A DNA stretch of 35,049 bases from Phycisphaera sp. (GTDB taxonomy: Bacteria > Planctomycetota > Phycisphaerae > Phycisphaerales > SM1A02): the NCBI GenBank assembly GCA_016124975.1, contig WGMP01000007.1, positions 1 to 35,049 on the forward strand. Reading direction: 5' to 3'. The position numbers and the translations under genes are program-made. Each line of letters opens with the position of its first letter. The first letter of the stretch is position 1. The notes beneath the pieces are model-generated. The model saw only the letters and a list, made by a program, of their open reading frames with translations, had not been told where the DNA came from and did not search any database. Of the stretch, positions 3,741 to 34,434 are shown piece after piece.

Positions 3741-3915
3741 CCGCAGGCGGAGCGCGAGACCACCCGATCGGAGGGAGCGCGGCGAGGCAACTGCGCCAAG
3801 TCGCCGATTCGTGCGCGTGGGGGTTTCCGCGTGCACGAAATCGGCGTAGGTTGCGTGCGATCGATGTCCCGTGCGCCCATCGAGGCGCAGTGGCATCGGA
3901 CGAGAGCCACGCGCG

Positions 3916-5997
3916 ATGCCCAGACACTTCACCCAAAGCCAGTCACAGCGCCGTTCGGCGAACAGCCTCGGGACCGCCCTCGTTCTGACCTCGATCGCGC
4001 TCGCCGCGCCCAGCCTCTCCACCACGGCGCATGCACGGCAGGAGGCCTCCGTCACGGGCTTCGGTGAGATCTCCTTCCGCCGGATCGAGCAGCCCGACCT
4101 TGCCAAGATCACGGCGACAGGTTGGGCGAACCTCGCGATCCGAGCGGATGGAACGGTCGCGGCGTGGGGCGACAGCCTCTATGGAGTCTGCCATGTTCCT
4201 GCGGGACTGTCGGGCGTGACGGCGATCGCCGGGGGCGCGCATCATGTGCTTGCGCTCCAGTCCGATGGATTGGTCCGCGCGTGGGGTCATGACGAGCACG
4301 GGCAGGCGACCGTGCCCGTCGCGCTCGGCTCGTGCATCGCGATCGGCGCCGGTGATGCGCACAGCGTGGCGCTGCGCGCGAACGGAACGGTCGCCTGCTG
4401 GGGCGCGGGCGCCTCGTCGGGCGCATCGCCGAACTACGGTCAAAGCGCGGTTCCGGCGAACCTGGGAACTGCGACGGCGATCGCGGCGGGCGGCTGGCAC
4501 ACGCTTGCGCGCAGATCAGACGGCACGGTGCAGGGCTGGGGCTTCAACACCTCGGGCCAGTGCAACCCGCCGACCACGATCGGCCCCGTCGTGAAGCTGT
4601 CGGGCGGCGGGCAGCACAGCGCGGCGCTCCGCGTCGATGGCACCATCGTCTGCTGGGGGTCGAACAGCCACGGACAGATCGAGGTTCCCACGGGGCTCGG
4701 TGTGGCGACCGACCTCGCACTCGGGTCGGCGCACTCGGTCGCGCTTCTTGCGGACGGCACGGTCGTCTGCTGGGGCGCGGATGCGGCGGGCCAGTGCGCC
4801 GTACCCAAGGAACTCGACAATGTGACGGCGGTCGCGGCAGGTGGCTCGCACACGCTCGTGCTGCAGGCCGACGGCCGCGCGCAGGCCTGGGGATTCCTCG
4901 GCGATTGGGCGGCACCCGCGACGGGATTCGGCCGTACGGTCAAGGCGGACGGCGCGTGGCGGCACGCGATCTTCCTGCGTCAGGACGGCTCGGTCACCTG
5001 CATCGGCTCGAACTCGGCCGGCCAGTGCGATGTGCCCGCCGATCTCGGCCCCGCGATCGCGGTCACCGCCGCAAATCACCGATGCTTCGCGCTCAGGGCG
5101 GACGGAACGCTGGCCGGATGGGGCGCCGGAGTCGGATACGGCGAGGAGTTTGTGCCGACCGAGCCGAACATCGCGGGCGTCGCGGCGGGCATGCACCACA
5201 ATGTCGCCTTCCGACAGAACGGCACGGTGTTCGCGTGGGGGCGGAACAACTACCAGCAGTGCGTTGTTCCCGAGGGGCTGTCAGGCGTCATCGATGTCGA
5301 TGCGGGATTCTCGCACTCCGTGGCGCGGCGCAGCGACGGCTCGATCGTCTGCTGGGGCCGCAACAACCACGGCCAGTCGTCCGTGCCCGCAGGTCTCGCG
5401 GGCACGCGGGACCTCGCGGCGGGCTTCTGGCACACGGTCGCGGTGCGCGCCGATGGCTCGGTGGTCTGCTGGGGCAGCAACAACTCGGGGCAGTGCAATG
5501 TGCCGCCCGAGGCGTTCAATGTCGTCGAGGTCGCCGCGGGAAGTTCGCACACCATCGCCCTTCGGAGCGATGGCTTGGCCGTCGCGTGGCAGCAGCTTCC
5601 CGCGGGCGCGCTGATCGACCCCGCGCGTGTGCCGCAGGATCTCGGCACGGTCGACGCGATCGCCGCAGGAGAGAACTTCTCGATCACCATCGACCTCCCT
5701 TCCTGCGTCAGCTTCCAGGATGGCGGCAAGGACGAGGACTGCGACGGAAACGGCGTTCCCGACTACTGCGACATCGAGAACGGCGCAGCGGATGTCGACG
5801 CCGACGGCACGCTCGATTCGTGCGAGCAGGCTGCGGGCGACCTCGACCTCGACGGCATCGTGGGCGCGGGCGACCTCGCTGTGCTGCTGTCGTCGTGGGG
5901 TGCGGGCGCGTCGTCGCCCGCGGATCTCGACGGCGACGGTGCGGTCGGCGGCGGCGACCTGGCGTCGCTCCTGTCGCGCTGGGGCGCGGTGCCCTGA
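3916..5997 (+). CDS. Secreted RCC1-like repeat protein with dockerin-like C-terminus
   Basis: This 693-residue protein has a signal peptide (TALVLTSIALAAPSLSTTAHA, cleavage probably after A40). About 13 RCC1-like repeats follow. Their CWG/AWG tryptophan-glycine marks fall at about 84, 123, 162, 208, 247, 286, 325, 363 (CIG), 402, 441, 480, 519 and 558. The spacing is almost exactly 39 residues, shorter than the roughly 50 of eukaryotic RCC1 blades. Each repeat reads roughly V-x-AIAAG-x-x-H-x-VALR-x-DGTV-x-CWG-x-N-x-x-GQ-x-x-VP. Residues 604-636 are Asp/Cys-rich (DCDGNGVPDYCDIEN), a likely calcium-binding stretch. The end (642-690) has two copies of a D-x-D-x-DG...DLA-x-LL-x-x-WG motif resembling dockerin EF-hand repeats. 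An extracellular beta-propeller role in adhesion or binding is likely; the ligand is unknown. ATG 3916 is chosen over GTG 3871 because it leads straight into the signal peptide. Confidence 0.88.
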   Translation: MPRHFTQSQSQRRSANSLGTALVLTSIALAAPSLSTTAHARQEASVTGFGEISFRRIEQPDLAKITATGWANLAIRADGTVAAWGDSLYGVCHVPAGLSGVTAIAGGAHHVLALQSDGLVRAWGHDEHGQATVPVALGSCIAIGAGDAHSVALRANGTVACWGAGASSGASPNYGQSAVPANLGTATAIAAGGWHTLARRSDGTVQGWGFNTSGQCNPPTTIGPVVKLSGGGQHSAALRVDGTIVCWGSNSHGQIEVPTGLGVATDLALGSAHSVALLADGTVVCWGADAAGQCAVPKELDNVTAVAAGGSHTLVLQADGRAQAWGFLGDWAAPATGFGRTVKADGAWRHAIFLRQDGSVTCIGSNSAGQCDVPADLGPAIAVTAANHRCFALRADGTLAGWGAGVGYGEEFVPTEPNIAGVAAGMHHNVAFRQNGTVFAWGRNNYQQCVVPEGLSGVIDVDAGFSHSVARRSDGSIVCWGRNNHGQSSVPAGLAGTRDLAAGFWHTVAVRADGSVVCWGSNNSGQCNVPPEAFNVVEVAAGSSHTIALRSDGLAVAWQQLPAGALIDPARVPQDLGTVDAIAAGENFSITIDLPSCVSFQDGGKDEDCDGNGVPDYCDIENGAADVDADGTLDSCEQAAGDLDLDGIVGAGDLAVLLSSWGAGASSPADLDGDGAVGGGDLASLLSRWGAVP

Positions 5998-6016: not shown

Positions 6017-6613
6017 TCAGAGCTTCTTCGTCGCGAAGTAGGTGGCATCGGCCGCAGGCGCGAGCGCGGCGGCCGCGGCGGCGTCGAGCCCCGCATATCC
6101 GATGCGGCGGTAGAGCGCGATCGCGCCCGAGTTGGTCGCGGCGACCTCGAGGGTGATCTTCGCGAACCCGTGCTCGCGCGCGAGGTCCTCGAGCGCGTTC
6201 ATCATCGCGGTGCCGAGTCCGTGGCCGCGCGCGGCGGGCGCGACATGGAAATCGTGCACATTGAAGAGCTGCGCGCGCGCGAAGGACGAGTAGCCCTCGA
6301 AGGCGATCAGCACCCCTTCGGTCGACTCGCTCTCGCCGCGGGCTGCGAGGAGGACGAGCGTGCCCGCGCGCCGCGCGAGGTCGTCTGCGACGCGCGTGAA
6401 GTGCGCGGCGTCGAGATCGGGGCGCGACGAGACGGGCTCGGCCGCGAACTCGGCCATCAGGCGCGCGAAGGCGGCGCGGTCGTCTTCGTCTCTGAAGTCG
6501 CAGATCCAGACGTCGATGTCGGAGGCGGCGTCTGCCTCGGACGACGACGACGACGCGGCGCGCCCACGCGCCTCGCGCGCGGCCCGCGCTGACTTCGGCG
6601 ACTTCCGGCTCAT
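6017..6613 (-). CDS. GNAT-family N-acetyltransferase
   Basis: This 198-residue protein matches the Gcn5-related acetyltransferase fold. The acetyl-CoA pyrophosphate-binding motif A (R-x-x-G-x-G) is seen as RGHGLG at 129-134. It follows the beta-4 strand FNVHDFHVAP, with NSGAIALYRRIGYA at 161-174 as the usual C-terminal motif B. The first 30 residues are a basic, serine-rich extension unlike the domain. Its ATG overlaps the TGA of the upstream PrpD-like gene (ATGA, 6610-6613), so translation is probably coupled. Substrate cannot be assigned; small-molecule or ribosomal-protein acetylation are both common in the family. Its stop lies 19 bases from that of the convergent RCC1-like gene. Confidence 0.85.
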   Translation of the reverse strand: MSRKSPKSARAAREARGRAASSSSSEADAASDIDVWICDFRDEDDRAAFARLMAEFAAEPVSSRPDLDAAHFTRVADDLARRAGTLVLLAARGESESTEGVLIAFEGYSSFARAQLFNVHDFHVAPAARGHGLGTAMMNALEDLAREHGFAKITLEVAATNSGAIALYRRIGYAGLDAAAAAALAPAADATYFATKKL

Positions 6614-8184
6614 TCGTACTTCCCGCGGTTGGCGATCGCGAAGTCGTAGAGCGACGCAAGCTCGGCCGACGAGAGCGACGCGATGCGGTTGAAGCGGTCG
6701 ATGATCGGCTGCGGGTTGTCCGACGCGAGCTTGCCGAGGTTCTCCGCCTTCTTCGCGAGGATGCCCTTGAGGTCGGCGGTCGTGTTGCGCGCGTGGCCCG
6801 CGGGGTACATCACGAGGCCGGAGTCGTACTTGGTGCCGTCGGCCATCTCGATGACGAGCGAGGTCGGGATGCCGTCCGGGTAGCGACGGTCGTACTCGGG
6901 GCCGCCGTGGGTGAAGGAGAACTTCTCCATCAGCGCGCGGGTCTTCTTGTTGAAGATCGCCTCGGGCGAGTAGTCGTGCGGCACGAGCATGAGGTTCTTC
7001 CAGTAGCAGTTGTCGCAGTGGCCGAGCTTGGTCGACTTGGTCGACTCTGCCATCTCGATCGCCTTGCGGAGGAGCGTGCCGACGATGTAGACCATCGAGT
7101 GGTCGGCCGACTGGCGCGTCTTCGGGTCGCGCTTCGCGGGGTCGCCGATGATGCCGAAGGCGGGCTCGTAGGCGACGATGTTGATGCTCTTGATGGCATC
7201 GGGCTTCTCGAGAATCTGCGGGTTCTCACGGAGGAGCGTCAGCACGCCCTGCAGCGCGCCCGCCGACTGGTGCTCGTAGAGGCCGAGCTTGAAGTGCATG
7301 CCCATGACGGCGAAGTCGCTGCCCGAGTGCGAGAGGACGAGGTCGAACGGGCTGTCGCCCTTCGTCTTCTCGAACTGGCGGAACATGCTCTCGGGGTTCC
7401 TGAAGATGTCGCGCGGGCCCATGAATCCGCGCATCGAGCGCATCATCGAGAGGACGGCCACCTCGGTCGAGATCGCGGCCGACGCGCCCTTCGAGTCGCT
7501 GAGCTGCTTGCCGGCGCGGATCGCGCGCCACGGGATGTAGTGGGCGACGGTCATGCCGATCGCGCTCTCGATCTCTTCAGCGGTCGCGCCCATCATCGCG
7601 CCGTAGGTCGCGGCGCTCGCGATCGCGCCGTGGACGACATGGTCGATCTTGTAGGTCTTGAGCGAGAAGACCTCTGCGAGGCGGCCGCGGATCTCGTCGA
7701 GGCAGACCATGCCGCGGAGGGCGTAGGCGCCGTCGCGCCCCTGCTGCTGCGCGGCGGCGACGGCGACGGGATAGAAGTCGTTGTGGCCGAACTCGCCGGC
7801 GGTGTGGCCGAGCTCTGGGTTGAAGCCGAAGTTGGTGCCGTTCGAGTCCCATTCGCGCACGGCGTTCGAGTTGGCGACGATCGCCTTCTCGGGCGCGACC
7901 TTCGCGGTCGAGCCGAAGACGGGTGCGCCCTTCGCATGCGGATACTCGGCGGCCTCTGCGCGCAGGATGATCGGCGCGTTGGTGTTGAGCGCGATGGCGC
8001 TGATGCCGCAGAGGACGGAGTCGGTGTGGAACATCACCGTGCGCTCGAGCACCGAGGCGTCGGGCGACCCGATCTTGCCCGACATGAAGTCGATGGCGAA
8101 CTGGCCGATGCCGAGGGCCTGGTTCGTGTCGCGCGGGAGGACGGTCTGGTTCTTCAGGGCGGTTGCGTCGGTGGGGACTGCCAT
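6610..8184 (-). CDS. MmgE/PrpD-family protein (2-methylcitrate dehydratase-like)
   Basis: This 524-residue protein is of the MmgE/PrpD lyase family, whose members dehydrate 2-methylcitrate or related acids, or are decarboxylases or isomerases such as CAD. Supporting features are the N-terminal helical region (GIGQFAIDFMSGKIG), the signature ANSNAVREWDSNGT (104-117) with GHTAGEFGHNDFYPV (126-140) for the usual D-x-x-D and PSD region, and QLSDSKGASAAI further on. It is longer than the usual 450-480 residues. ATG 8184 is chosen because upstream codons in frame run through the repeat-rich spacer and are arginine-rich nonsense. No clear Shine-Dalgarno precedes it. The 3' end overlaps the GNAT start. 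With no citrate synthase or lyase alongside, the true substrate is open. Confidence 0.85.
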   Translation of the reverse strand: MAVPTDATALKNQTVLPRDTNQALGIGQFAIDFMSGKIGSPDASVLERTVMFHTDSVLCGISAIALNTNAPIILRAEAAEYPHAKGAPVFGSTAKVAPEKAIVANSNAVREWDSNGTNFGFNPELGHTAGEFGHNDFYPVAVAAAQQQGRDGAYALRGMVCLDEIRGRLAEVFSLKTYKIDHVVHGAIASAATYGAMMGATAEEIESAIGMTVAHYIPWRAIRAGKQLSDSKGASAAISTEVAVLSMMRSMRGFMGPRDIFRNPESMFRQFEKTKGDSPFDLVLSHSGSDFAVMGMHFKLGLYEHQSAGALQGVLTLLRENPQILEKPDAIKSINIVAYEPAFGIIGDPAKRDPKTRQSADHSMVYIVGTLLRKAIEMAESTKSTKLGHCDNCYWKNLMLVPHDYSPEAIFNKKTRALMEKFSFTHGGPEYDRRYPDGIPTSLVIEMADGTKYDSGLVMYPAGHARNTTADLKGILAKKAENLGKLASDNPQPIIDRFNRIASLSSAELASLYDFAIANRGKYE

Positions 8185-8467: not shown

Positions 8468-9991
8468 TCAGTCGAGGCCGCGCCGTGCGGCCACGGTGAG
8501 GTCCCACCACAGGAGCGCGAAGGTGAACACGGCCAGAGCGTTCCACGCGATCGGCGCGATGACCCACCCTCCGATCGGAACCGCCGCGACGAGATAGGTG
8601 GGGACGAGCAGCAGGAGGCGAACGACGAAACCCGCCGTGTGCCAGCCCGTCGGCGCGAGGGCCATCGCCTTCCTGAAGCGGCCGAAGCGGATCATGAGGG
8701 CGATGTCTGCGACCGCGATGAGCGCGACCGTGACGAAGTAGAGCCCGATCCACGATGCGCCGAGCGCGGTGCCCAGCGTCTCGGGCAGCGCGCGAGCGAG
8801 GGACTCAAACCCGACGACGAGCCCGATGAGGATCGCCACCCCGAGCGGCCGCGCCGAGGCGGCGAGGTCCATCCACCGCATGCGGGCGCCCGCGAGCCCG
8901 AATGCTGCGAGCTGTGCGCCCACGATGGCCTGCGCGATCAGCCCGACCGCGGTGAAGCCGAAGAGCATGATCACGAGCGCGAGTCCGAATCCGCGATCGA
9001 GCGGGGCAGCCGCCGAGACCGGCAGCAGAACGATGGCAAGAAGCAGCGTCGGCAGCCCGAGGCACGCACCCGCGAGCGCAAACCTGCGCATCGACGCGAG
9101 CCCCGCCGCGTCGAGCCACGGCGGCCGCAGCGAGCGCTCGCCAAGCACCGCGCCGCACTCCGTGCACGGTTCGCCGAGCGCCTGCGTGCGCACATCCTGG
9201 CCGCAGTTCGCGCAGCGCCACGGCGTGCGCAGAGCGCGGGGCTCGCCCTCACGCATGCCGCCGCGTCTTGGGGAACCCGACCGCGCATCGAGGTCCCTGA
9301 GGAGATACAGGAAGCCGACCGCGATGCCCAGCGCGCCGATCGTCGAGAGGAGCAGCGCGGGGCGCTCCCAGTAGTCACCCCATATGGAGTTCACTCCCAT
9401 CAGCGCGACCGTGACGAACGCAATCGAGGGAATCGATGCGGCCCTCCCGTGAGACGGCCGGGATCCGCTCGATCGTGCAAGTGCGGCTGGCATTGCCGCG
9501 ACTCCAGCGCCGATCAACGGTAGGCCCACGGCCCAGAGAGTCCAGGACCCGAGAAGCCCGACCACGAGGACCAACAGGCCAACCGACGCGATCAACGCAG
9601 CCAGCGTGCGCAAGGCGCCGCCGGCACGCCACAGAAGACCGAAGGAGACGGCCGCGACGAGCAAGGCAAGCACGGCTCCGAGGGCAATCACGCCCAGCAG
9701 CGTTTCGAGAACGGGTGATGCATAGCCCGGGGTCGCGGGGAGGCCACCGAACCAAGAGAGGCTGGCGCCCAACCCGACGGCGAGCGCCGCGGCGACGAGC
9801 AAGGCGCCGACGACAAGCGCCCACGCACCGAACTTGACCCTGCGGCGGACGGCCACATCCCGCCACGCGCCGTGAAACGGGTTCTCGACGACCGTTCCGC
9901 CGCACTCGGGGCAGGTCTCGCCGAGCGCGCGCCCCGCGAGGTCGTAGCCGCATGCGACGCAGAGTTGGGAGGTGGGCTCCGATTCACGCAT
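8468..9991 (-). CDS. Double-module zinc-ribbon membrane protein
   Basis: This 507-residue protein consists of two tandem copies of one module. Module 1 has a zinc ribbon with C11, C14, C27, C30 (CxxC-x12-CxxC, CVACGYDLAG...CPECG). Then come NPF, WRD (43-45) and RRR, about five membrane helices, and an ALARSSG motif near 170. Module 2 starts at residue 246 with MREGEP, has a second ribbon at C260, C263, C276, C279 and then more helices to the end. MREGEP matches the N-termini MRESEP (this protein) and MREAEP (the paralogue at 10862-11611), so it looks like a fossil start codon left by fusion of two neighbouring paralogues. The function is unknown; the ribbons should be cytoplasmic. It is one of six related genes reading in the same direction. 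Confidence 0.8.
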   Translation of the reverse strand: MRESEPTSQLCVACGYDLAGRALGETCPECGGTVVENPFHGAWRDVAVRRRVKFGAWALVVGALLVAAALAVGLGASLSWFGGLPATPGYASPVLETLLGVIALGAVLALLVAAVSFGLLWRAGGALRTLAALIASVGLLVLVVGLLGSWTLWAVGLPLIGAGVAAMPAALARSSGSRPSHGRAASIPSIAFVTVALMGVNSIWGDYWERPALLLSTIGALGIAVGFLYLLRDLDARSGSPRRGGMREGEPRALRTPWRCANCGQDVRTQALGEPCTECGAVLGERSLRPPWLDAAGLASMRRFALAGACLGLPTLLLAIVLLPVSAAAPLDRGFGLALVIMLFGFTAVGLIAQAIVGAQLAAFGLAGARMRWMDLAASARPLGVAILIGLVVGFESLARALPETLGTALGASWIGLYFVTVALIAVADIALMIRFGRFRKAMALAPTGWHTAGFVVRLLLLVPTYLVAAVPIGGWVIAPIAWNALAVFTFALLWWDLTVAARRGLD

Positions 9992-10010
9992 CGCTTTGGC
10001 TCCGCTTCAC
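9984..10010 (-). promoter_or_regulatory. Possible 8-codon leader ORF (GTG start)
   Basis: On the minus strand CAGGAG is followed six bases later by a GTG that opens an 8-codon frame (VKRSQSDA). The frame ends in a TGA that overlaps the first codons of the zinc-ribbon gene starting at 9991. The same arrangement occurs before the paralogue at 11611. It may couple translation, or simply be a copied segment. Confidence 0.3.
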
Positions 10011-10044
10011 CGTCGGCTCCTGATCCGCTTCGCACCGTGCGCCA
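9995..10044 (-). repeat. Copy 1 of a duplicated 5' leader segment
   Basis: About 50 bases upstream of the zinc-ribbon gene at 9991 are nearly identical to 11615-11664 upstream of the paralogue at 11611; four or five differences are visible. Similarity continues into both coding regions through the ribbon. This indicates duplication of a start region including its leader. Confidence 0.8.
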
Positions 10045-10047
10045 GCA

Positions 10048-10800
10048 CTACCGCGCCACGAAGCACGACTGCGTCGCGCGCGTCATCCCGCGGACGAGGA
10101 GAAGCATGCCCGTCGTCTCCGCGATCGGGCCGACCACACGGCCGCCGTACTTGAGCCACATTGCGAACACCGTCTCCGCTCTCCCCTCATTGAAGAATCC
10201 GCAGAAGGCGAGGACGTAGGCGACACACGGTACCGCCCCAACCACGGCGCACGCCACAAGCCAACGCCGCCTCGTCGGCTGGCCCGCAGAACGCGCGAGG
10301 AGCGGCGGCATGCAGCACAGCAGCGCGTTCACGCCCCAGACGCCTGCCGCGAGCACCGAAGACAGCCCCGCCGACGGCGGAAAGCCACCCCAAAGCCGTG
10401 GAACCGTCCAGAACCCCCGCCCTACGAGCAGCAGCACGATGAGACACACGAAGACCCGCACCGATCCGATCCGCCACGCCGCGCGCACGAGCCAGAACAG
10501 CGACACGAACAGGCATGCGTCCACGACGAGCTGCAGCGTCTCCGCCTGAACCGAGGGCGCTCCGAGCCGCCGCACGATGGAGATCCACGCTACGGCGAGC
10601 ACCCCGATCGCATAGGCCGCGACGACGATCCACGCACCCACGATGAACCGCCCGCGGACGCACCCGTCGCGCCACGCGCCGCGGAACGGGTTCTCGACGA
10701 TTCTTCCGCCGCACTCGGGGCAGGTCTCGCCGATGGCGCGCCCCGCGAGGTCGTAGCCGCATGCGACGCAGAGTTGGGAGGTTGAGTTCACTGCGTTCAT
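10048..10800 (-). CDS. Single-module zinc-ribbon membrane protein
   Basis: This 250-residue protein is one copy of the cluster module. It has a zinc ribbon at C11, C14, C27, C30 (CVACGYDLAGRAIGETCPECG), then NPFRGAWRD, about five or six membrane helices and the conserved LLARSAG motif followed by RRRW near the C-terminal helices. The ribbon-coding DNA is almost the same as that of the downstream double-module gene, whereas the membrane domain is very different. That argues for recent exchange or conversion of the ribbon segment. ATG 10800 is preferred because GGAAAG lies just upstream and its product aligns with its paralogues; an in-frame start exists at 10842. Function unknown. Confidence 0.78.
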   Translation of the reverse strand: MNAVNSTSQLCVACGYDLAGRAIGETCPECGGRIVENPFRGAWRDGCVRGRFIVGAWIVVAAYAIGVLAVAWISIVRRLGAPSVQAETLQLVVDACLFVSLFWLVRAAWRIGSVRVFVCLIVLLLVGRGFWTVPRLWGGFPPSAGLSSVLAAGVWGVNALLCCMPPLLARSAGQPTRRRWLVACAVVGAVPCVAYVLAFCGFFNEGRAETVFAMWLKYGGRVVGPIAETTGMLLLVRGMTRATQSCFVAR

Positions 10801-10861
10801 GCGCTTTCCATCGTGCCTCGCGCGGGCCAGAAGCTGCGCCAAGAAGTCGAAGCCGGCAATG

Positions 10862-11611
10862 TCAATCCTGCAATCCGCGTCGCTCGGCGCGCGCGATCAG
10901 CAGAGGCATGCTCGCGGCCGCGACCGCCCCCGCGGAGAAGCTCACGAACATTCCGAGGTACAGGACCCGCTCGGCGTCGAACGAATACGAAGACGGCGAT
11001 CGCAGGAGAAGCACCGCGCTGATCGGGAGTCCGCTCGCGGCGACGGCGACCGCGATGCGCAGCGCCAGTCCGAGCCTCGCGACCTGAGGCGGGTGCAGGA
11101 GAAGGAGCAAGCAGAACCACTCGGCGAACAGGGCCGTGGAGACGATGTACTCGCCCTCGATGTACCGCTGCGCGAACCGGAGCTGCGGCATCATCATGAT
11201 CAGCAGCGTGGCGGTCACGAGCAGCAACTTGGCGACGGCCATGACTCCGAGCGCGATCCGAACGCGCCGCGCGGGCCAGTGCCACGCGACCAGCGGCCAA
11301 CCGAGCAGGCTCCCCGCGCAGCCGATGATGACGAGCCCGATCGCGAGGATCTCGAGCGATCGGATCGGCCATCCGCCGCCGTCGAGCGCAAGAAGGAACC
11401 CCCCGAGCATCGCCCAGGAGAAACACCCCGCCACCACGATCCACGCGCCGATCGAGAGTCGCCGTCGCGTCGCGATCGGGCGCCACGCATCGGGGAACGG
11501 GTTCACGACGACCCTCGCTCCGCACTCAGGGCAGTTCTCTCCGATCGCACGCCCCGCGAGGTCGTAGCCGCAGGCGAGGCAGCCTTCGGGTGTGGGTTCC
11601 GCCTCACGCAT
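10862..11611 (-). CDS. Single-module zinc-ribbon membrane protein
   Basis: This 249-residue member of the cluster has a ribbon at C11, C14, C27, C30 (CLACGYDLAG...CPECG). NPFPDAWRPIATRRR follows, in which the WRD of the other copies has become WRP, and then about six helices. It ends LIARAERRGLQD, at the point where its paralogues carry the ARSxG motif and then continue with more helices, so it is shorter at the C-terminus. Its 5' leader and first codons match those of the gene at 9991. No catalytic motif is seen in the membrane part. The role is unknown. Confidence 0.78.
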   Translation of the reverse strand: MREAEPTPEGCLACGYDLAGRAIGENCPECGARVVVNPFPDAWRPIATRRRLSIGAWIVVAGCFSWAMLGGFLLALDGGGWPIRSLEILAIGLVIIGCAGSLLGWPLVAWHWPARRVRIALGVMAVAKLLLVTATLLIMMMPQLRFAQRYIEGEYIVSTALFAEWFCLLLLLHPPQVARLGLALRIAVAVAASGLPISAVLLLRSPSSYSFDAERVLYLGMFVSFSAGAVAAASMPLLIARAERRGLQD

Positions 11612-11630
11612 GGTTTGGGCTCCGCTTCAT
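11604..11630 (-). promoter_or_regulatory. Possible 8-codon leader ORF (ATG start)
   Basis: CAGGAG lies six bases before an ATG at 11630 that opens an 8-codon frame (MKRSPNHA). Its TGA at 11606-11604 overlaps the start of the zinc-ribbon gene at 11611. The frame, Shine-Dalgarno and stop position are all kept in the copy at 9984-10010, while five of the codons or bases between differ. The gene itself has no closer ribosome site, so re-initiation is possible. Confidence 0.35.
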
Positions 11631-11664
11631 CGTCGGCTCCTGATCCGCTTCGCGCCGTGCGCCA
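11615..11664 (-). repeat. Copy 2 of a duplicated 5' leader segment
   Basis: Counterpart of 9995-10044, offset by 1620 bases. It holds the candidate leader ORF. The remaining spacer up to the stop of the next upstream gene (11745) shows nothing recognisable. Confidence 0.8.
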
Positions 11665-11744
11665 ACGCGACCTCGCCGCGAGGCACGACCGAGTCTTACA
11701 GCTCGACATGTCCCGTCGCATCCTACGGAAAGCCGAGCCTGCAA

Positions 11745-12500
11745 TCAGGTCCGCCCTTCGAGGACCAGCCTCCCGGCGCGCGCAAACCGCTCGACGCCTC
11801 GGAGAGCGATGACGAGGGCTCCGACCCAGAGAATCGGTGCGAAGAGCCATCCGCAGGACGGAACGAGCGCCGATACGGCTGCGAGAAAGAGCATAGCGGC
11901 CGCTGTGCTTGACAGCCCCTCGTTCACCCGCGTGTCGCTCCAGTCGATCTCGACCATGAGCGCGTTGCAGGCATTCATCGCCGCAAAGTCGGCGCCTGCA
12001 AGCAGGATCGTCGCCGATATCCACAGCGCAAGCGCTGCACCCATCGGCAGCGAGATTGCCTCCGACAGCACGCCGGCGACGACCACCGCTGCGGCGAGCA
12101 CCACCAGCGCGCGGACGGCGTTCGCCACGCGCAGTCGACGCCGAATGCCTTCGCCGACCGGCTGCCGCGCCACCGTCTCGACCGCAGAAGCCTGCGTCGC
12201 GGTCTGCAGGCCCGACAACACGCAGAGCGCAGCGATCGCATAGCCGTCGATCGAGAAGTCGCTCGCCGCCAGCGCGAGCGCGACAATCACCGCGAGGAGA
12301 AGTGCCAACGATGCGTGCTTCGCTCGCCGCGATGCGCGCTCGATCTGTGTGAGCGATCGGACGCTCCACCACGCCGGGGCGAGCTGCTCGATCAGCGTGC
12401 CGCACTCGGGACACTTGTCGCCGACCATCCTTCCGCGCAGGTCATAGCCGCAGCCGGCGCAGGGCAGCGCTCGTCGCGCCGCGGAGGGGCCCGGCGTCAT
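11745..12500 (-). CDS. Single-module zinc-ribbon membrane protein, divergent member
   Basis: This 251-residue protein has a ribbon at C14, C17, C30, C33 (CAGCGYDLRG...CPECG). The juxtamembrane segment reads WWSVRSLTQIERASRRAKH instead of the NPF-WRD-RRR motif. Six or so hydrophobic helices follow. The distal pair near the C-terminus (PSCGWLFAPILWVGALVIAL) resembles the last helices of the double-module protein. It starts four bases after the stop of the upstream gene; GGAGATGA, which overlaps that stop, provides a good ribosome site, so the two are co-translated. Function unknown. Confidence 0.78.
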   Translation of the reverse strand: MTPGPSAARRALPCAGCGYDLRGRMVGDKCPECGTLIEQLAPAWWSVRSLTQIERASRRAKHASLALLLAVIVALALAASDFSIDGYAIAALCVLSGLQTATQASAVETVARQPVGEGIRRRLRVANAVRALVVLAAAVVVAGVLSEAISLPMGAALALWISATILLAGADFAAMNACNALMVEIDWSDTRVNEGLSSTAAAMLFLAAVSALVPSCGWLFAPILWVGALVIALRGVERFARAGRLVLEGRT

Positions 12501-12504
12501 CGGC

Positions 12505-13866
12505 TCATCTCCATGCACTCCGAACATCGCGGGCAAGCAGCAGGTACGCAAGCGTTGTGCACGCCGCGCCGACGATACCGCTGGGCGTGAACACATCGAA
12601 CCCCGACACGCCTGGGATCATGCGGATCAGCCCGTCGACCACAAGGAGCAGTTCGGGCGAAGCGTCCGCGAGCCCAGCCAAGCCGCTCCCCAGCGCGCCG
12701 AGCACGCACGCGCACCAGAGCGGCAACGAACGCGGCCGACCTGCCGACCGCGCGATCACGAGCGGCAGCATGCAGCACCCGATTGCGGCGATCATCTGCG
12801 CGAAGGCGAGGAACCTGTAGATCTCGGATCTCCCCGACAGAACCACCGATGGCGGGATGTAGGCCATCGCGACCTCGGAGAGCAACCTGATCGTGAGCGC
12901 GAACACCAACAGCCACACCACGGCGATCCGACGCGCCGCCAGGCCCAGCGCGATGATCGCCACCAGCACCGAGACATGGAAGGCCAGATACGACCCGCTG
13001 AACCAGAGCGCGTCGACCTCGGAGATCGCACCATCAATGCCGAGGACCTTCTGGAGCGTGTTGATCGCGCTCGCGCAGACGAACACGCCTGCGCCGATCA
13101 CAAATCGGCGCCGCGCCCCCGCATCGCGCCATCCGCCGCCAACCATGGTCTCCTTCGGGTCACGCAGCGCAACGGCGATCGTGCGCTGAAGGGCGCAGAA
13201 CGCAGCGGCGGTTCCCAGCTGGCTCACCATGACGAGCGCGATCACGACCTCCTCGAAGGGCCGTCCCCCATGAGAGAACGTCAGCGCCATGATCGAAACC
13301 GCGACCAGTGCGCCAGAGGAAACGAGCTGGAGCCAGCGGAAGCGCATGGCCCGACCGCTCGACCTCGCGAGGTAGCCTGGCGAGAGCGCAATCGCCGCAC
13401 CGAGCAGCGACCAGAAGGCGCCCGCGGACTCGATCGTCATGCTCGGCGCGATCCGAGGGATCCCCACGAAGGATGCAAGGAGCAGTGCGATGAGCGTGAC
13501 GAGCACGCGCACCGCGAGGATCGCACGCCAGACGAAGGCGAGCAGGACCATGGACACCGCAAGCATCGCGACGCCGCAGAACGCCACCGCGTTGGCGACC
13601 GACGTCACCACGGGAGACTGGTTCAACGGTGTCACCGAAGCGAGGAGCACCATGGCCAGAGAGGCACCAAGCAAGGTCGTCGCCGCGACCATGCAACGCG
13701 AACCACGAACGAACCGCCTTCGCACCCTCGCGTCCCGCCATCCGCCGCGAAATGGATTCGCGATGACAACGGCCCCGCACTCGGGACAACTGTCGCCGAC
13801 CGAACTCCCCGCGAGGTCGTAGCCGCACCCGAGGCACTCGCCGAGATGCGCATGATCGACGCTCAT
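12505..13866 (-). CDS. Duplicated zinc-ribbon membrane protein whose second ribbon is lost
   Basis: The protein has 453 residues. Module 1 has a ribbon at C11, C14, C27, C30, then NPFRGGWRDARVRRRF (WRD at 43-45), helices, and an LARSSGR motif near 168-172. Module 2 begins about residue 236 with DPKETMVGGGWRDAGARRRF (WRD at 246-248), has helices, and a second IARSAGR motif, but no cysteines where the ribbon should be. It is therefore a tandem duplication in which the second copy kept the juxtamembrane and ARSxG motifs and lost the metal site. The start ATG overlaps the TGA of the upstream kinase-fusion gene (ATGA, 13863-13866). The motifs that survive are probably the ones important for the membrane part. 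Confidence 0.8.
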   Translation of the reverse strand: MSVDHAHLGECLGCGYDLAGSSVGDSCPECGAVVIANPFRGGWRDARVRRRFVRGSRCMVAATTLLGASLAMVLLASVTPLNQSPVVTSVANAVAFCGVAMLAVSMVLLAFVWRAILAVRVLVTLIALLLASFVGIPRIAPSMTIESAGAFWSLLGAAIALSPGYLARSSGRAMRFRWLQLVSSGALVAVSIMALTFSHGGRPFEEVVIALVMVSQLGTAAAFCALQRTIAVALRDPKETMVGGGWRDAGARRRFVIGAGVFVCASAINTLQKVLGIDGAISEVDALWFSGSYLAFHVSVLVAIIALGLAARRIAVVWLLVFALTIRLLSEVAMAYIPPSVVLSGRSEIYRFLAFAQMIAAIGCCMLPLVIARSAGRPRSLPLWCACVLGALGSGLAGLADASPELLLVVDGLIRMIPGVSGFDVFTPSGIVGAACTTLAYLLLARDVRSAWR

Positions 13867-15581
13867 GCCGCATACCCGGACCCGTCATCCGCCCCGAGTC
13901 GCCGCATCGCTGCGTTGGCGGCGCCGAGAAGCTCGAGCGCACCGAGCGCGAGGCACACTCCCCACATCGTCGGGAGATATGAGAATCCGACGGGCGCGAA
14001 GAGCGTCGCAAGCGGCAGCGCGAGCAGGATTCCGTAGCGCGCCTTGGACGCGGCCGCTCTCCAGGGCTGCGCCGAGCGCGCTCCCGTCCGCTCCGCGAGA
14101 TCACGCAGCCACCACAGCAGAATCGCGTCCCCCACGAGGACGAGGAGCGGGACGGGGAGAATGAAGAGCGGCGCGATCCGCGGATGGGCGAGAGCGTCGA
14201 GAATCCCGTCGAAGATCGGCCAGCCGATGAGGACGAGCGCGGGGTAGAGAAGCTGCCCGACGGAGAACGCGGCCGCGCGCGCGACGGCGAGCTCCCGCAG
14301 GCGTCGACGGCGACGCGGCTCGTGTGCGAACGAGGCGAACCGCCAGGTCGCGACCGAATGGAGCGACACCTGCGCGCTCGCGATCACGAAGACGGCCACG
14401 AAGGCCGCGATGTCCGTGAAATGCTCGATCACTGGCGTGATCGCGAGAACGATGCCCGCCCCGAAGAGGAGTCGCGCGGAGTTCGCAAGCCTCGTGAGCG
14501 CGCGTGCATCGACGGCACCGTGGGAGCGCGTCGCCGCCACGATGCCGCCACCGCACTCGGGGCACCGTTCCCCAGCCGCCCTCCCCGTCAGGTCGTAGCC
14601 GCAGCGGTCGCAGCGAGGCGGGGGCGACGGGGTCGTCTCCGCTGCGGGCCGCGGCTTCAGGTGCGTCCGCTCGGGAAGCTCCGCCACGACCTCCAGCTCG
14701 CCAAGCGACGGAAGCGAGGGAATCGCGCCCGCCCGCATCGCCGCGAGCGCGCCGGCAGCGTTCGCGCGGGCGAGCGCCTGCGCGGGGTCGCGCCCTTCCG
14801 CGATCGCGGCGAGATACGCCCCCACGAAGGCGTCGCCGCAACCGACCGTGTCGACCGCATCGACGATGTAGCCGCCGTGCGAGTACCGCGCGCGGCCGAG
14901 CGCCGCGATCGCGCCGCCCGCGCCGAGCGTCACGATCACGGTCGCGGCGGGCATGCGCGCTGCGAGCACCTCGAGCGCACGCGCCGGCTCGCGCTCGCCC
15001 GTGAGCGACTCGGCCTCCGTCTCGTTGACGACGAGCCCCGTCAGCTTCTCGAGCTTCAGCGCGCCGAGCCGCGCGTTCGCGGGCGCGGCGTTCAGCCACA
15101 CGCGCAGCGCACGCGCGGCAGCGTGCGCGATTCCCTCGTGGAGGCACGCGCACTCATTTTGGAAGAGGACGATGTCGCCCTGCTCCGCACCCGCGAGAAA
15201 CGCCTCGATCTCGGCGAAGACGATGCGGGTGTTCGACTCGGGTGCGATGACGATCGCGTTCTCGCCCGACTCAGCGACAAGCACCGTGGCGCTGCCCGCG
15301 ACGGGGTCCGCGGTCGAGATCTCCTCGGTCGACACCCCCGCCTCGCGCAGCGCCTCGACGATGAAGGCTCCGTCGCGGCTCGTGCGCCCGAGCATGCGCA
15401 CCCGCGCGCCGCACTTCGCGGCGGCCGCGGCCTGGTTCGCGCCCTTTCCACCCGCGAAGGTCGCGGAGGAGATCGCGGCGACCGTCTCGCCTGCGCGGGG
15501 CAGCGCGTGCACGCGCACGACGCGATCGATCATCATCGATCCGACGACATGGATTCGCGAGGCGGAGACCGCAGGCGGCAC
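13863..15581 (-). CDS. PfkB-family sugar kinase (ribokinase-like) fused to zinc-ribbon membrane module
   Basis: Residues 1-300 form a PfkB/ribokinase-type kinase. The glycine motif is AGGKGANQA (43-51), NETE is at 186-189, and the C-terminal signature is DTVGCGDAF (244-252), with D250 as catalytic base; the usual DTxGAGD has C in place of A. A proline-rich linker (about 307-322) leads to a zinc ribbon at C324, C327, C340, C343 (CDRCGYDLTGRAAGERCPECG). About five membrane helices follow, to residue 572. A normal ribokinase ends near 300-310, so the rest is added. The kinase should phosphorylate ribose or a related sugar or nucleoside; the membrane part would tether it. The gene lies 39 bases after fructose-1,6-bisphosphatase in the same direction. 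The reading frame is continuous, with no sign of an assembly join. Confidence 0.87.
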   Translation of the reverse strand: MPPAVSASRIHVVGSMMIDRVVRVHALPRAGETVAAISSATFAGGKGANQAAAAAKCGARVRMLGRTSRDGAFIVEALREAGVSTEEISTADPVAGSATVLVAESGENAIVIAPESNTRIVFAEIEAFLAGAEQGDIVLFQNECACLHEGIAHAAARALRVWLNAAPANARLGALKLEKLTGLVVNETEAESLTGEREPARALEVLAARMPAATVIVTLGAGGAIAALGRARYSHGGYIVDAVDTVGCGDAFVGAYLAAIAEGRDPAQALARANAAGALAAMRAGAIPSLPSLGELEVVAELPERTHLKPRPAAETTPSPPPRCDRCGYDLTGRAAGERCPECGGGIVAATRSHGAVDARALTRLANSARLLFGAGIVLAITPVIEHFTDIAAFVAVFVIASAQVSLHSVATWRFASFAHEPRRRRRLRELAVARAAAFSVGQLLYPALVLIGWPIFDGILDALAHPRIAPLFILPVPLLVLVGDAILLWWLRDLAERTGARSAQPWRAAASKARYGILLALPLATLFAPVGFSYLPTMWGVCLALGALELLGAANAAMRRLGADDGSGYAA

Positions 15582-15620: not shown

Positions 15621-16613
15621 TCAGCCCACGAACTCGCGCACTTTCTCGACCTCGGCCCGCGAGCCGAGCAGGACGGGCACGCGCTCGTGCACCTCGCGCG
15701 GCTCGTGCTCCATCGTGCGCTTCGAGCCTGAGAACGCGAGGCCGCCCGCCTGCTCGATGATCATCGCCATCGGGCTCGCCTCGTAGAGGTAGCGGAGCTT
15801 GCCCTCGGGGTTCTTCTTCGTCGGCGGATACATGAAGACGCCGCCCGTCAAGAGCGTGCGGTGGACATCGGCGACCATCGACCCGATGTAGCGCGACGAG
15901 TAGCCGTTCTGGTGCGCCCAGTCGAGGTAGCGGCGGTAGCCCTCGGGGAAGGTCTCGCGGTAGGCCTCGTTCACCGAGTAGACCTTGTTCGTCTCAGGAA
16001 TGCGCACCTTCTCCTTCACGAGGAGGAACGAGCCGATGAACGGATCGAGCTCGAAGAGGGCGACGCCGTTGCCCGTCGTCAAGACGAAGATCGTCGACGA
16101 GCCGTAGAGCACATAGCCCGCCGCGACTTGGTGCGTGCCTGGTTGGCAGACCGTGCCCTGCGCGTCGTGGATGTGCGGGTCGTTGCGGAGGATCGAGAAG
16201 ATCGTGCCGACACCGACGCCCGTGTCGAGGTTCGAGCTGCCGTCGAGCGGGTCGAACATGACGCAGTACTTTCCGCCTTCGTTTCCGCGGCGGAGGATCG
16301 TGGGCTCGTCGTGCTCCTCGCTTGCGAGGACGGCAACCGACGCGCGCGTGCCGAGGCAGCGGATGATCGCGCGGTTGGCGATCACATCGAGCTTCTGCTG
16401 CTCCTCGCCCTGCACGTTCGTCTCGCCGATCTTGCCGATCGCGCCCGAGAGGCGCGCGCGGCGCACATGGTTCGCGATCGACTTCGCTGCGAGCGAGATC
16501 GCGCTGATGATCCAGGTGAAGTCGCCGCTCGCGGTCGGGAACTTCGCCTCCTCGAGCAGGATGTGGCTCTGGAGGCTCATCAGGTTCTCGGAGAGGTCGT
16601 GGCTGTTGGGCAT
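15621..16613 (-). CDS. fbp: Fructose-1,6-bisphosphatase class I
   Basis: This 330-residue protein has the class I length and motifs. E99 and E100 (VLASEEHDEP) and DPLDGSSNLD at 121-130 bind the catalytic metals, and SSRYIGSMVADVHRTL plus KLRYLYEASPMAMIIEQAGG form the substrate side of the site. It hydrolyses fructose 1,6-bisphosphate to fructose 6-phosphate in gluconeogenesis. The frame stays open far upstream, antisense to the thiolase gene, but homology begins at the ATG at 16613. The PfkB fusion gene follows 39 bases downstream, so both may share a transcript, with a start in the 168-base divergent spacer 16614-16781. Confidence 0.95.
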   Translation of the reverse strand: MPNSHDLSENLMSLQSHILLEEAKFPTASGDFTWIISAISLAAKSIANHVRRARLSGAIGKIGETNVQGEEQQKLDVIANRAIIRCLGTRASVAVLASEEHDEPTILRRGNEGGKYCVMFDPLDGSSNLDTGVGVGTIFSILRNDPHIHDAQGTVCQPGTHQVAAGYVLYGSSTIFVLTTGNGVALFELDPFIGSFLLVKEKVRIPETNKVYSVNEAYRETFPEGYRRYLDWAHQNGYSSRYIGSMVADVHRTLLTGGVFMYPPTKKNPEGKLRYLYEASPMAMIIEQAGGLAFSGSKRTMEHEPREVHERVPVLLGSRAEVEKVREFVG

Positions 16614-33918: not shown

Positions 33919-34434
33919 TCAATGGCGCTCCTCGCGCTCCGCTCCATCGCGCGGCGCGTCGCCTCGCACCGCAGGGCACTCGCCCTCTCCAGAGATCGCC
34001 GCCGCGATCCGCACGCGCATGTCGTCCGCGCCGACTCCGACATGCTCCCCAGACGGCGAGAAGCCCCAGTGTTCACGCACCTGTGCGATCGAGTAGTCCC
34101 GCGCACACTTCGGGCACCTTCCCGCCGTCGGCCGCTCGGGAAGCTCGTGCTCGCATTGCGGGCATACCAACCCGCGTGTGCGCGCGACGGCGCGGTACAG
34201 CCGCTCGATCGGCTCGATGCGGATCGCGGGCGGCGTGGCCCAGAAGACGAGACTGAAGTAGATGACGACGACGACCGCAAGGGTGATCCCCATCGCGGTC
34301 CAGCCTGCGGCAAAGTAGGCGCAGGCGGGCACGATCCAGAGGAGTCGCTCGCTCCATCGAACCACGCGCGACCTGCGACCCCATCGCGGGCGCCGTGATC
34401 GGGGTTCGGAAGCGTCGCCACGCATGCCCCGCAT
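33919..34434 (-). CDS. Two-helix membrane protein with C-terminal zinc ribbon
   Basis: This 171-residue protein has a basic N-terminus, two helices at about 29-46 and 48-66, and then a zinc ribbon with C91, C94, C107, C110 (CPQCEHELPERPTAGRCPKC). The spacing CxxC-x12-CxxC is the same as in the large zinc-ribbon cluster, but here the ribbon follows the membrane part and lacks the GYDL-x-G signature. The tail (YSIAQVREHWGF) is conserved-looking. ATG at 34425 is an alternative start with three fewer residues. It converges with the lipoprotein gene. Function unknown. Confidence 0.72.
   Translation of the reverse strand: MRGMRGDASEPRSRRPRWGRRSRVVRWSERLLWIVPACAYFAAGWTAMGITLAVVVVIYFSLVFWATPPAIRIEPIERLYRAVARTRGLVCPQCEHELPERPTAGRCPKCARDYSIAQVREHWGFSPSGEHVGVGADDMRVRIAAAISGEGECPAVRGDAPRDGAEREERH

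Follow-up and report, generated by a model that had tools for sequence, protein, structure and literature searches.

Six membrane genes with one shared cysteine ribbon, several bundle types and mosaic DNA in a Phycisphaera sp. contig

What kind of proteins is encoded by six consecutive genes that share one short ribbon and carry different membrane parts is the question raised by the minus strand of a 35,049-nucleotide (nt) stretch of Phycisphaera sp. DNA (contig WGMP01000007.1, positions 1 to 35,049; hereafter the window), which belongs to a 3.6-Mb draft genome (G000, contig C2). A first-pass annotation of the letters alone had described positions 8468-15581 as a run of six genes built on one zinc-ribbon/membrane module. 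We found that the six genes, lying along the minus strand in the order F, E, D, C, B, A with F transcribed first, share one cysteine ribbon at one spacing, that this ribbon is joined to membrane bundles of more than one type and in F also to a ribokinase-type kinase, and that the DNA is mosaic. We hold with moderate confidence that the array is a modular, recombining set of membrane proteins, in which ribbon and bundle would serve in docking or sensing for cytoplasmic partners and the ribbon would bind metal. All six genes are full-length long open reading frames (ORFs) at the positions given below, together with their ribbons as located by a pattern scan.

13863..15581, minus strand: gene F, 572 amino acids; ribokinase-type PfkB kinase (residues 1-300), ribbon and type II bundle of six predicted helices
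14553..14612, minus strand: ribbon of F, CDRCGYDLTGRAAGERCPEC
12505..13866, minus strand: gene E, 453 amino acids; ribbon, type I bundle and a second type I bundle without ribbon
13777..13836, minus strand: ribbon of E, CLGCGYDLAGSSVGDSCPEC
12508-13158, minus strand: second, ribbon-less type I bundle of E, matched by the type I hidden Markov model (HMM)
11745..12500, minus strand: gene D, 251 amino acids; ribbon and type II bundle
12402..12461, minus strand: ribbon of D, CAGCGYDLRGRMVGDKCPEC
10862..11611, minus strand: gene C, 249 amino acids; ribbon and type I (subgroup Id) bundle
11522..11581, minus strand: ribbon of C, CLACGYDLAGRAIGENCPEC
10048..10800, minus strand: gene B, 250 amino acids, from the ATG at 10800; ribbon and type I bundle
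10711..10770, minus strand: ribbon of B, CVACGYDLAGRAIGETCPEC, its DNA 97% identical to the first ribbon of A
8468..9991, minus strand: gene A, 507 amino acids; ribbon and type I bundle, then degenerate ribbon and type II bundle
9902..9961, minus strand: first ribbon of A, CVACGYDLAGRALGETCPEC
9155..9214, minus strand: second, degenerate ribbon of A, CANCGQDVRTQALGEPCTEC

The ribbon reads C-x2-C-G-Y-D-L-x-G-x3-G-x2-C-P-E-C-G in all six genes, and A carries the degenerate copy in addition. The pattern gave seven matches in the six-frame translation of the window and none in 100 mononucleotide shuffles, which bears out the shared ribbon of the first-pass annotation. In every one of the six genes the four cysteines form two C-x2-C knuckles, as is expected of zinc-binding ribbons; a C-x-C first knuckle occurs in 6 of the 37 ribbons of the array and its relatives, none of these six being in the window. 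The further motifs that had been described were found in part. NPF-x3-WRD-x3-RRR, said to be present in most of the genes, is exact in two modules (the first of A and the first of E) and relaxed in three (C with WRP, B with RGR, and the second module of E with GGWRD..RRR and no NPF), and the pattern scan did not find it in D and F. The ARSxG motif deeper in the proteins is present in A, in B and twice in E (once in each module), and absent from C, D and F. Among known families, the ribbon resembles rubredoxin-like and zinc-ribbon domains (PF21349, DZR PF12773, DUF7129 PF23455, NF033497 and NF041909) in its two C-x2-C knuckles, in C-G-Y and C-P-x-C-G, and in a length of about 20-30 residues. 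It differs from them in that every ribbon match stayed below the curated cut-off in the proteins tested, and in that the ribbons here are fused to a bundle of six predicted helices and in relatives also to other membrane or enzyme parts. For the six array proteins, RUBY_RBDX (PF21349) gave at most 16.5 bits against a gathering cut-off of 26.5, with E values of 0.006-0.18 that indicate weak similarity to rubredoxin-like domains, and DZR gave at best 22.7 bits (gene A) against 27.3. A C-x2-C...C-x2-C string of another type, CPQCEHELPERPTAGRCPKC, was seen by pattern scan near position 34164 of the minus strand and is a candidate only.

The membrane parts behind the ribbon are of several kinds. 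When 39 modules from the window, 13 genus relatives and two genomes of the sister genus were clustered by BLAST (a set that leaves out 11 ribbon-less membrane ORFs near the array and the loci L088, L110 and L111), the membrane parts fell into several groups, namely type II with 17 modules (in the window D, F and the second half of A, and 14 more from relatives), a kinase-linked type I group with eight, a window-type I group with six (the first module of A, B, both modules of E and two of G006), and small groups for the rest. The type II HMM scored 272.1 bits for D, 233.0 for the second half of A and 226.6 for F, and the type I HMM scored 220.1 and 46.1 bits for the first and second bundles of E and 185.1 bits for the first half of A. 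By HHalign, type II had no significant match to the other bundle groups (highest probability 5.3%), and in view of the several BLAST groups and this missing link the idea that one zinc-ribbon/membrane module forms a single family was rejected. Cross-type HMMER scores are about 30-56 bits over nearly the full length; since the ribbon alone already reaches about 40 bits, distant homology of the two bundle types is possible on these scores. Type II is recognised by the motif P-x2-G-W-x-F-A-P-I-x-W close to its last helix; two residues that fall roughly midway along predicted helices, the arginine R130 and the aspartate D171 in the numbering of D, are kept in 16 of 16 rows of alignment A2. For type I, an acidic column picked out visually holds D or E in 10 of 15 rows. 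(A2 and A5 exclude the fused module of G009; A3 excludes the second module of E, the ribbon-less tail of G004, and groups Ic and Ie.)

AlphaFold2 predicted six helices for D (type II; residues 47-79, 86-111, 117-145, 153-184, 190-211 and 217-247; predicted local distance difference test (pLDDT) 88.3, predicted template modelling score (pTM) 0.80), and six long helices plus one short one for the first module of E (type I; pLDDT 78.4, pTM 0.71). Lysine and arginine are more frequent in loops 2 and 4, the N-terminal part and the C-terminus than in loops 1, 3 and 5 (18 type II and 15 type I rows); because of this charge distribution, the bundles are predicted to have both termini inside, with ribbon and kinase in the cytoplasm. 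Foldseek returned no match at E <= 0.001 among 313 for type II and 304 for type I. For type II, the only type compared by VIA-align, the highest Z was 14.4, obtained with a designed helical filament and close to the level at which matches of helical models call for caution. The type II matches to rhodopsins, TMEM45A and designed helical bundles likewise stand at about the level that helical bundles are expected to give. Furthermore, no Pfam or NCBIfam family, transporters and membrane enzymes included, exceeded its cut-off in the membrane part of the six proteins, no Pfam family did so in ten distant ribbon-membrane proteins taken from elsewhere in the class, and bundle profiles had no significant membrane match among PDB sequences. 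Known transporter families were rejected for the bundles on the strength of the Pfam, NCBIfam and PDB-sequence searches. The earlier statement that no assigned function was known for this architecture agrees with all the profile, PDB-sequence and fold searches made, none of which gave a family, and the known transporter or enzyme family that would have contradicted it was looked for by profile without any match over cut-off; none of the profile or fold matches points to a sensor, a chaperone or an assembly factor, the three roles that had been guessed.

The kinase-fused form noticed in the first reading proved to be a member of the PfkB family. The N-terminal part of F matches PF00294 with 140.1 bits (E 1.3e-40, cut-off 25.8) over profile positions 3-301 of 302, its residues 10-298 align to solved ribokinases (phmmer E 3e-45 for 6znx), and it keeps an aspartate which we take to be that of the ribokinase catalytic region. 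We call it only ribokinase-type, because it reaches 205.4 bits against the cut-off of 299.65 of the ribokinase equivalog TIGR02152. It differs from ribokinases in its added C-terminal ribbon and membrane bundle, which are lacking in the kinase relatives of genera g18, g43 and g46. In addition, a protein of G391 (L138:345-2282), from another family of the class, consists of a Ser/Thr protein kinase (Pkinase E 1.3e-35) followed by ribbon and bundle. These two fusions speak for a module that serves cytoplasmic enzymes in docking or signalling rather than for a chaperone.

The locus recurs in genus relatives, so that the persistence asked for in the first reading was found, in the form FBPase (fructose-1,6-bisphosphatase), kinase fusion, 0 to 5 ribbon-membrane genes and usually PrpD. 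The kinase is present in 14 of 16 genus genomes at E <= 1e-10 (none in G002 and G014), and 13 of these 14 have an in-frame kinase-membrane fusion, which is partial at contig ends in G001, G008 and G009. FBPase lies upstream wherever the contig reaches, with a thiolase beyond and, in some genomes, small membrane genes between. PrpD lies downstream in nine genomes, other genes take its place in G006 and G003, and the contigs of G009, G010 and G012 come to an end, that of G009 inside the fusion gene. The number of further ribbon genes beside the kinase is five in the window, four in G006, three in G012, two each in G008 and G013, one each in G001, G003, G004, G005, G007 and G011, at least one in G010 and none in G015. 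In the sister genus g17, the kinase is fused in G131, stands beside a separate ribbon-membrane gene in G031 and is unfused in G114 and G091. Of 121 genomes searched across the family, 26 gave a match to the kinase at E <= 1e-15; in g18, g43 and g46 it occurs by itself, the stretch fetched holding neither FBPase nor PrpD. Conserved neighbours are therefore real in the genus, where FBPase and PrpD flank the locus, and no recurring partner was seen by Pfam among 10 neighbour proteins from 5 of the 18 loci fetched outside it (argininosuccinate synthase, 2-oxoacid dehydrogenase E2, MgsA AAA, MltA, radical SAM, PMT, FG-GAP, polyphosphate kinase, UbiD and one protein with no Pfam match).

The membrane parts appear to have been exchanged behind the conserved ribbon. 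In A and B, the ribbon DNA is identical at 61 of 63 nt (97%) with an exact run of 47 nt, and the membrane DNA is 51% identical, with third positions at a saturated 40%. Where their residues are identical, A and B use the same synonymous codon at 19 of 20 ribbon positions and at 26 of 62 membrane positions (one-sided Fisher p 1.5e-5 without correction, the best of 39 same-genome pairs). Likewise, G012_3 and G012_4 share ribbon DNA at 89% identity, and their bundles come from two groups. Between lineages, G001 and G005 share an ungapped tract of about 940 nt at 99% identity, which begins some 27 nt downstream of the final ribbon codon and extends some 80 nt into PrpD; around it, the ribbon stretch is about 70% identical and PrpD beyond is 74-89% per 120 nt. 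A megablast scan of all loci at >=93% listed, besides PrpD of G004/G008 (93.1% over 1000), only the overlapping ends of two G001 contigs; the scan is not sensitive, for it misses the G001/G005 tract, whose match runs on into less similar DNA (85% over 3061 columns).

The kinase fusions have a similar pattern. Between G005 and G011 the amino acid identity is 94% in the kinase, 81% in the ribbon and 36% in the membrane part, the synonymous divergence (dS) being 0.42 in the kinase and 2.5, near saturation, in the membrane tail; between G007 and G012 the identities are 87%, 81% and 61%. The kinase carries a type I tail in eight genomes, an Id tail without ribbon in G004 and a type II tail in the window, G006, G009 and G131, and the tail of G015 stands alone in BLAST and is nearest to type I by HHalign. 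On the kinase tree at least two changes of bundle type are needed, with Id counted as I, and there is weak evidence against grouping the four type II fusions in one clade (approximately unbiased test, p-AU 0.041, for a group chosen with the types known). The module types and the kinase tails thus support the proposal of a shared ribbon with exchangeable membrane parts. The ratio of nonsynonymous to synonymous divergence (dN/dS) is 0.12-0.65 in 11 of 12 membrane pairs and 0.08-0.30 in five kinase pairs, one of them over only 93 codons; these values are rough, since several dS are near saturation. Recombination would be the simplest cause of the mosaic, and the A/B ribbon pair and the G001/G005 tract, few cases as they are, suggest the ribbon as its preferred joint.

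The remaining features of the locus in the window are the following.

15621..16613, minus strand: FBPase, upstream of F (PF00316, E 1.6e-59)
6610..8184, minus strand: MmgE/PrpD family gene, downstream of A (PF03972, E 5.4e-32), with a longer ORF from 8358
12596, minus strand: ATG, a possible upstream alternative start of D
10842, minus strand: TTG, an alternative start of B, the frame being open there also

FBPase and F are 39 nt apart with no membrane gene between them. F and E overlap by 4 nt, E and D are separated by 4 nt, and the gaps are 133 nt for C-D, 61 nt for B-C and 56 nt for A-B; a promoter and terminator scan found nothing above shuffles. In eight genus relatives, one or two ribbon-less membrane genes with 2-5 predicted transmembrane (TM) helices lie between FBPase and the kinase fusion, for example L055:10653-11237, L058:10696-11403, L061:5939-6676 and L087:8054-8689, and the one tested had no Pfam match. 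Two records carrying this planctomycete locus are probably mislabelled, L057/L201 (JASGCF010000084.1, titled 'Limnohabitans sp.') and L060/L194 (CAMDMA010000016.1, titled 'Candidatus Kuenenia'). Elsewhere in the window, positions 3871-5997 hold a gene of 708 amino acids with seven RCC1 repeat matches, and a related stretch is present in L062, which was fetched for another ribbon gene of G012.

Beyond the locus, the ribbon is widely multiplied. A ribbon-only profile, applied to 25 genomes that were chosen by hand, many of them for earlier hits or non-hits and not as a random sample, listed 23 copies in the window genome, six of which belong to the array. Four genus relatives have 6-12 copies, two further members of the family 13-20, four more genomes from the order 26-99 and another three from the class 12-116; for four genomes the counts are lower bounds, as only 150 candidates were scored. 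The same profile found none in six other genomes of the order or class and 0-1 in five genomes of other classes, so that the multiplication in Phycisphaerae genomes that was first supposed is right for part of the class. In G414, G039 and G043 the copies number at least 95-116 per genome. The type II profile matched 127 of 298 genomes of the class and the type I profile 8 of 294 genomes of the phylum at E <= 1e-6, counts that include the window genome, rest on at most nine scored candidates per genome and contain many matches that hardly extend past the ribbon. Ribbon-membrane genes in tandem were also seen in other genomes (L175, L181). In a set of 103 ribbon proteins, overlapping and not random because the loci were fetched by ribbon searches, 82 have an N-terminal ribbon and two or more predicted TM helices, seven have TM helices and a C-terminal ribbon, three have an N-terminal ribbon with fewer TM helices and 11 are of other forms. 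In proteins of L050, L164, L205-L207, L212, L216 and L224 the same ribbon follows membrane or other parts and so lies nearer the C-terminus, and L164 also matches DUF4350.

Considering these data together, we assume that the products are integral membrane proteins with an N-terminal, cytoplasmic, putatively metal-binding four-cysteine ribbon and a six-helix bundle in the membrane. The conserved ribbon DNA and the conserved flanking gene may offer short homology for crossover or conversion, which would replace bundles between array neighbours and between related lineages, with the ribbon staying and the bundle turning over, and the same ribbon joint would let the head kinase change its membrane tail. 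Most likely, each ribbon-bundle would dock or sense on behalf of a partner in the cytoplasm, with a link that is covalent in F, where it would give a membrane-tethered sugar kinase, and non-covalent or lost in the other genes. Several points weigh against this reading. Only one interlineage tract of the G001/G005 kind was found, and the codon test for G012_3 and G012_4 is not significant (p 0.097). Same-genome ribbons do share more synonymous codons over 480 module pairs (186 of 666 were left out for ribbons of unequal length), a modest effect whose difference is reached by 26 of 2000 label shuffles; since ribbons exceed bundles in codon sharing between genomes too (0.565 versus 0.411), the excess is partly one of composition. 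One poorly aligned membrane pair at 31% identity has a dN/dS of 1.00. In G013 the kinase is unfused and kept apart from the membrane part, and in G004 it is fused to a bundle without ribbon, so the ribbon is not essential to the kinase fusion. Moreover, the relatives are draft genomes, mostly contigs of metagenome-assembled genomes. Docking and sensing are read from fusions and topology, and the turnover of bundles at the ribbon has its support in the DNA. A wider proposal, that ribbon DNA is a standing recombination joint through which the kinase and its array neighbours repeatedly exchange six-helix domains, and that the ribbon is a common cytoplasmic docking tag which part of the Phycisphaerae has spread to tens or more than a hundred proteins, is offered as a tentative one, its odds set slightly lower because only one interlineage tract and one ribbon pair that stays clearly significant over 39 tests stand behind it.

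The other explanations follow in falling order of credibility: neutral anchors, an uptake of sugar that is tied to its phosphorylation, diversification driven by conflict, and a redox knuckle. Neutral birth-and-death, in which the bundles are interchangeable anchors of little specific function that come and go by duplication, deletion and occasional gene conversion, seems to us rather doubtful. It fits the 0 to 5 genes beside the kinase, the fast divergence of the membrane parts, the ribbon missing in G004 and the fusion missing in G013, and the lack of a recurring partner among the 10 neighbours at five loci outside the genus; however, dN/dS is below 0.66 in 11 of 12 pairs, the type II arginine and aspartate are kept in every row of A2, and AlphaFold2 gives a confident six-helix fold. 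A role of F in uptake, in which its bundle would act as facilitator or transporter subunit and its kinase would trap the incoming sugar, with the other genes encoding paralogous carriers of different specificity, is unlikely. The in-frame fusion, the alignment of the kinase over its whole length with solved ribokinases, its predicted cytoplasmic side and the conserved R and D of type II near the middle of predicted helices would suit this, but neither profiles nor solved sequences gave a transporter family, no gene for sugar uptake was among the ten neighbours tested elsewhere, and the kinase tails swap between bundle types whose membrane parts have no significant profile similarity, which is unlikely for one substrate path.

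An arms race, with the bundles as targets of, or immunity to, membrane-acting phage or rival agents, could likewise produce fast turnover, an interlineage tract and alternative modules arrayed at a fixed locus. We regard it as improbable, since Pfam searches of the six genes and of ten further ORFs in the window, three of which matched nothing, gave no domain for toxin, secretion or defence functions (PADLOC and PHROGs were not run), and a tie to a metabolic kinase would be odd for such a role. Least credible, and in our judgement very improbable, is a redox or metal module in which iron bound by the rubredoxin-like knuckle would relay electrons to a partner in the membrane: the weak RUBY_RBDX similarity that speaks for it lies wholly below the curated cut-off, no second redox centre was recognised, and both enzyme fusions seen are kinases. 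The reading as a modular, recombining set with docking or sensing modules is thus the one that we prefer.

In the parts of the literature covered by our search, there was no account of the ribbon-bundle family or architecture or of Phycisphaerae zinc ribbons, and a word search in the main text of PMC6461901, on freshwater Planctomycetes, gave no 'zinc', 'paralog', 'duplicat' or 'ribokinase'. What looks new is the use of ribbon DNA as a swap joint, as far as the compared sequences suggest it. The 20-residue ribbon lies below the cut-off of all Pfam and NCBIfam ribbon models in the tested proteins, yet is present in tens to more than 100 copies per genome in some Phycisphaerae; if it is indeed a common docking tag, function would come within reach for many such unknown proteins. 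The mosaic suggests how a bacterium might remodel membrane domains quickly with the cytoplasmic half untouched, and the kinase fusion places an assayable enzyme on a ribbon-bundle module.

Constant heads with swappable tails are a feature of Rhs/CDI (contact-dependent inhibition) toxins with orphan modules and of cassette antigens. The locus has the constant head, the variable tails and the adjoining alternative modules of such systems as a formal likeness only, and the Pfam scan of the six genes and ten window ORFs (again without PADLOC and PHROGs) found no toxin, immunity or secretion gene of the Rhs/CDI type. By analogy, the array would share with them a constant N-terminal and a variable C-terminal part, alternative modules lying alongside, and recombination at the constant part. 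It differs from them in what these parts are, the constant part being a ribbon of about 20 residues, the variable part a membrane bundle and the head a metabolic kinase.

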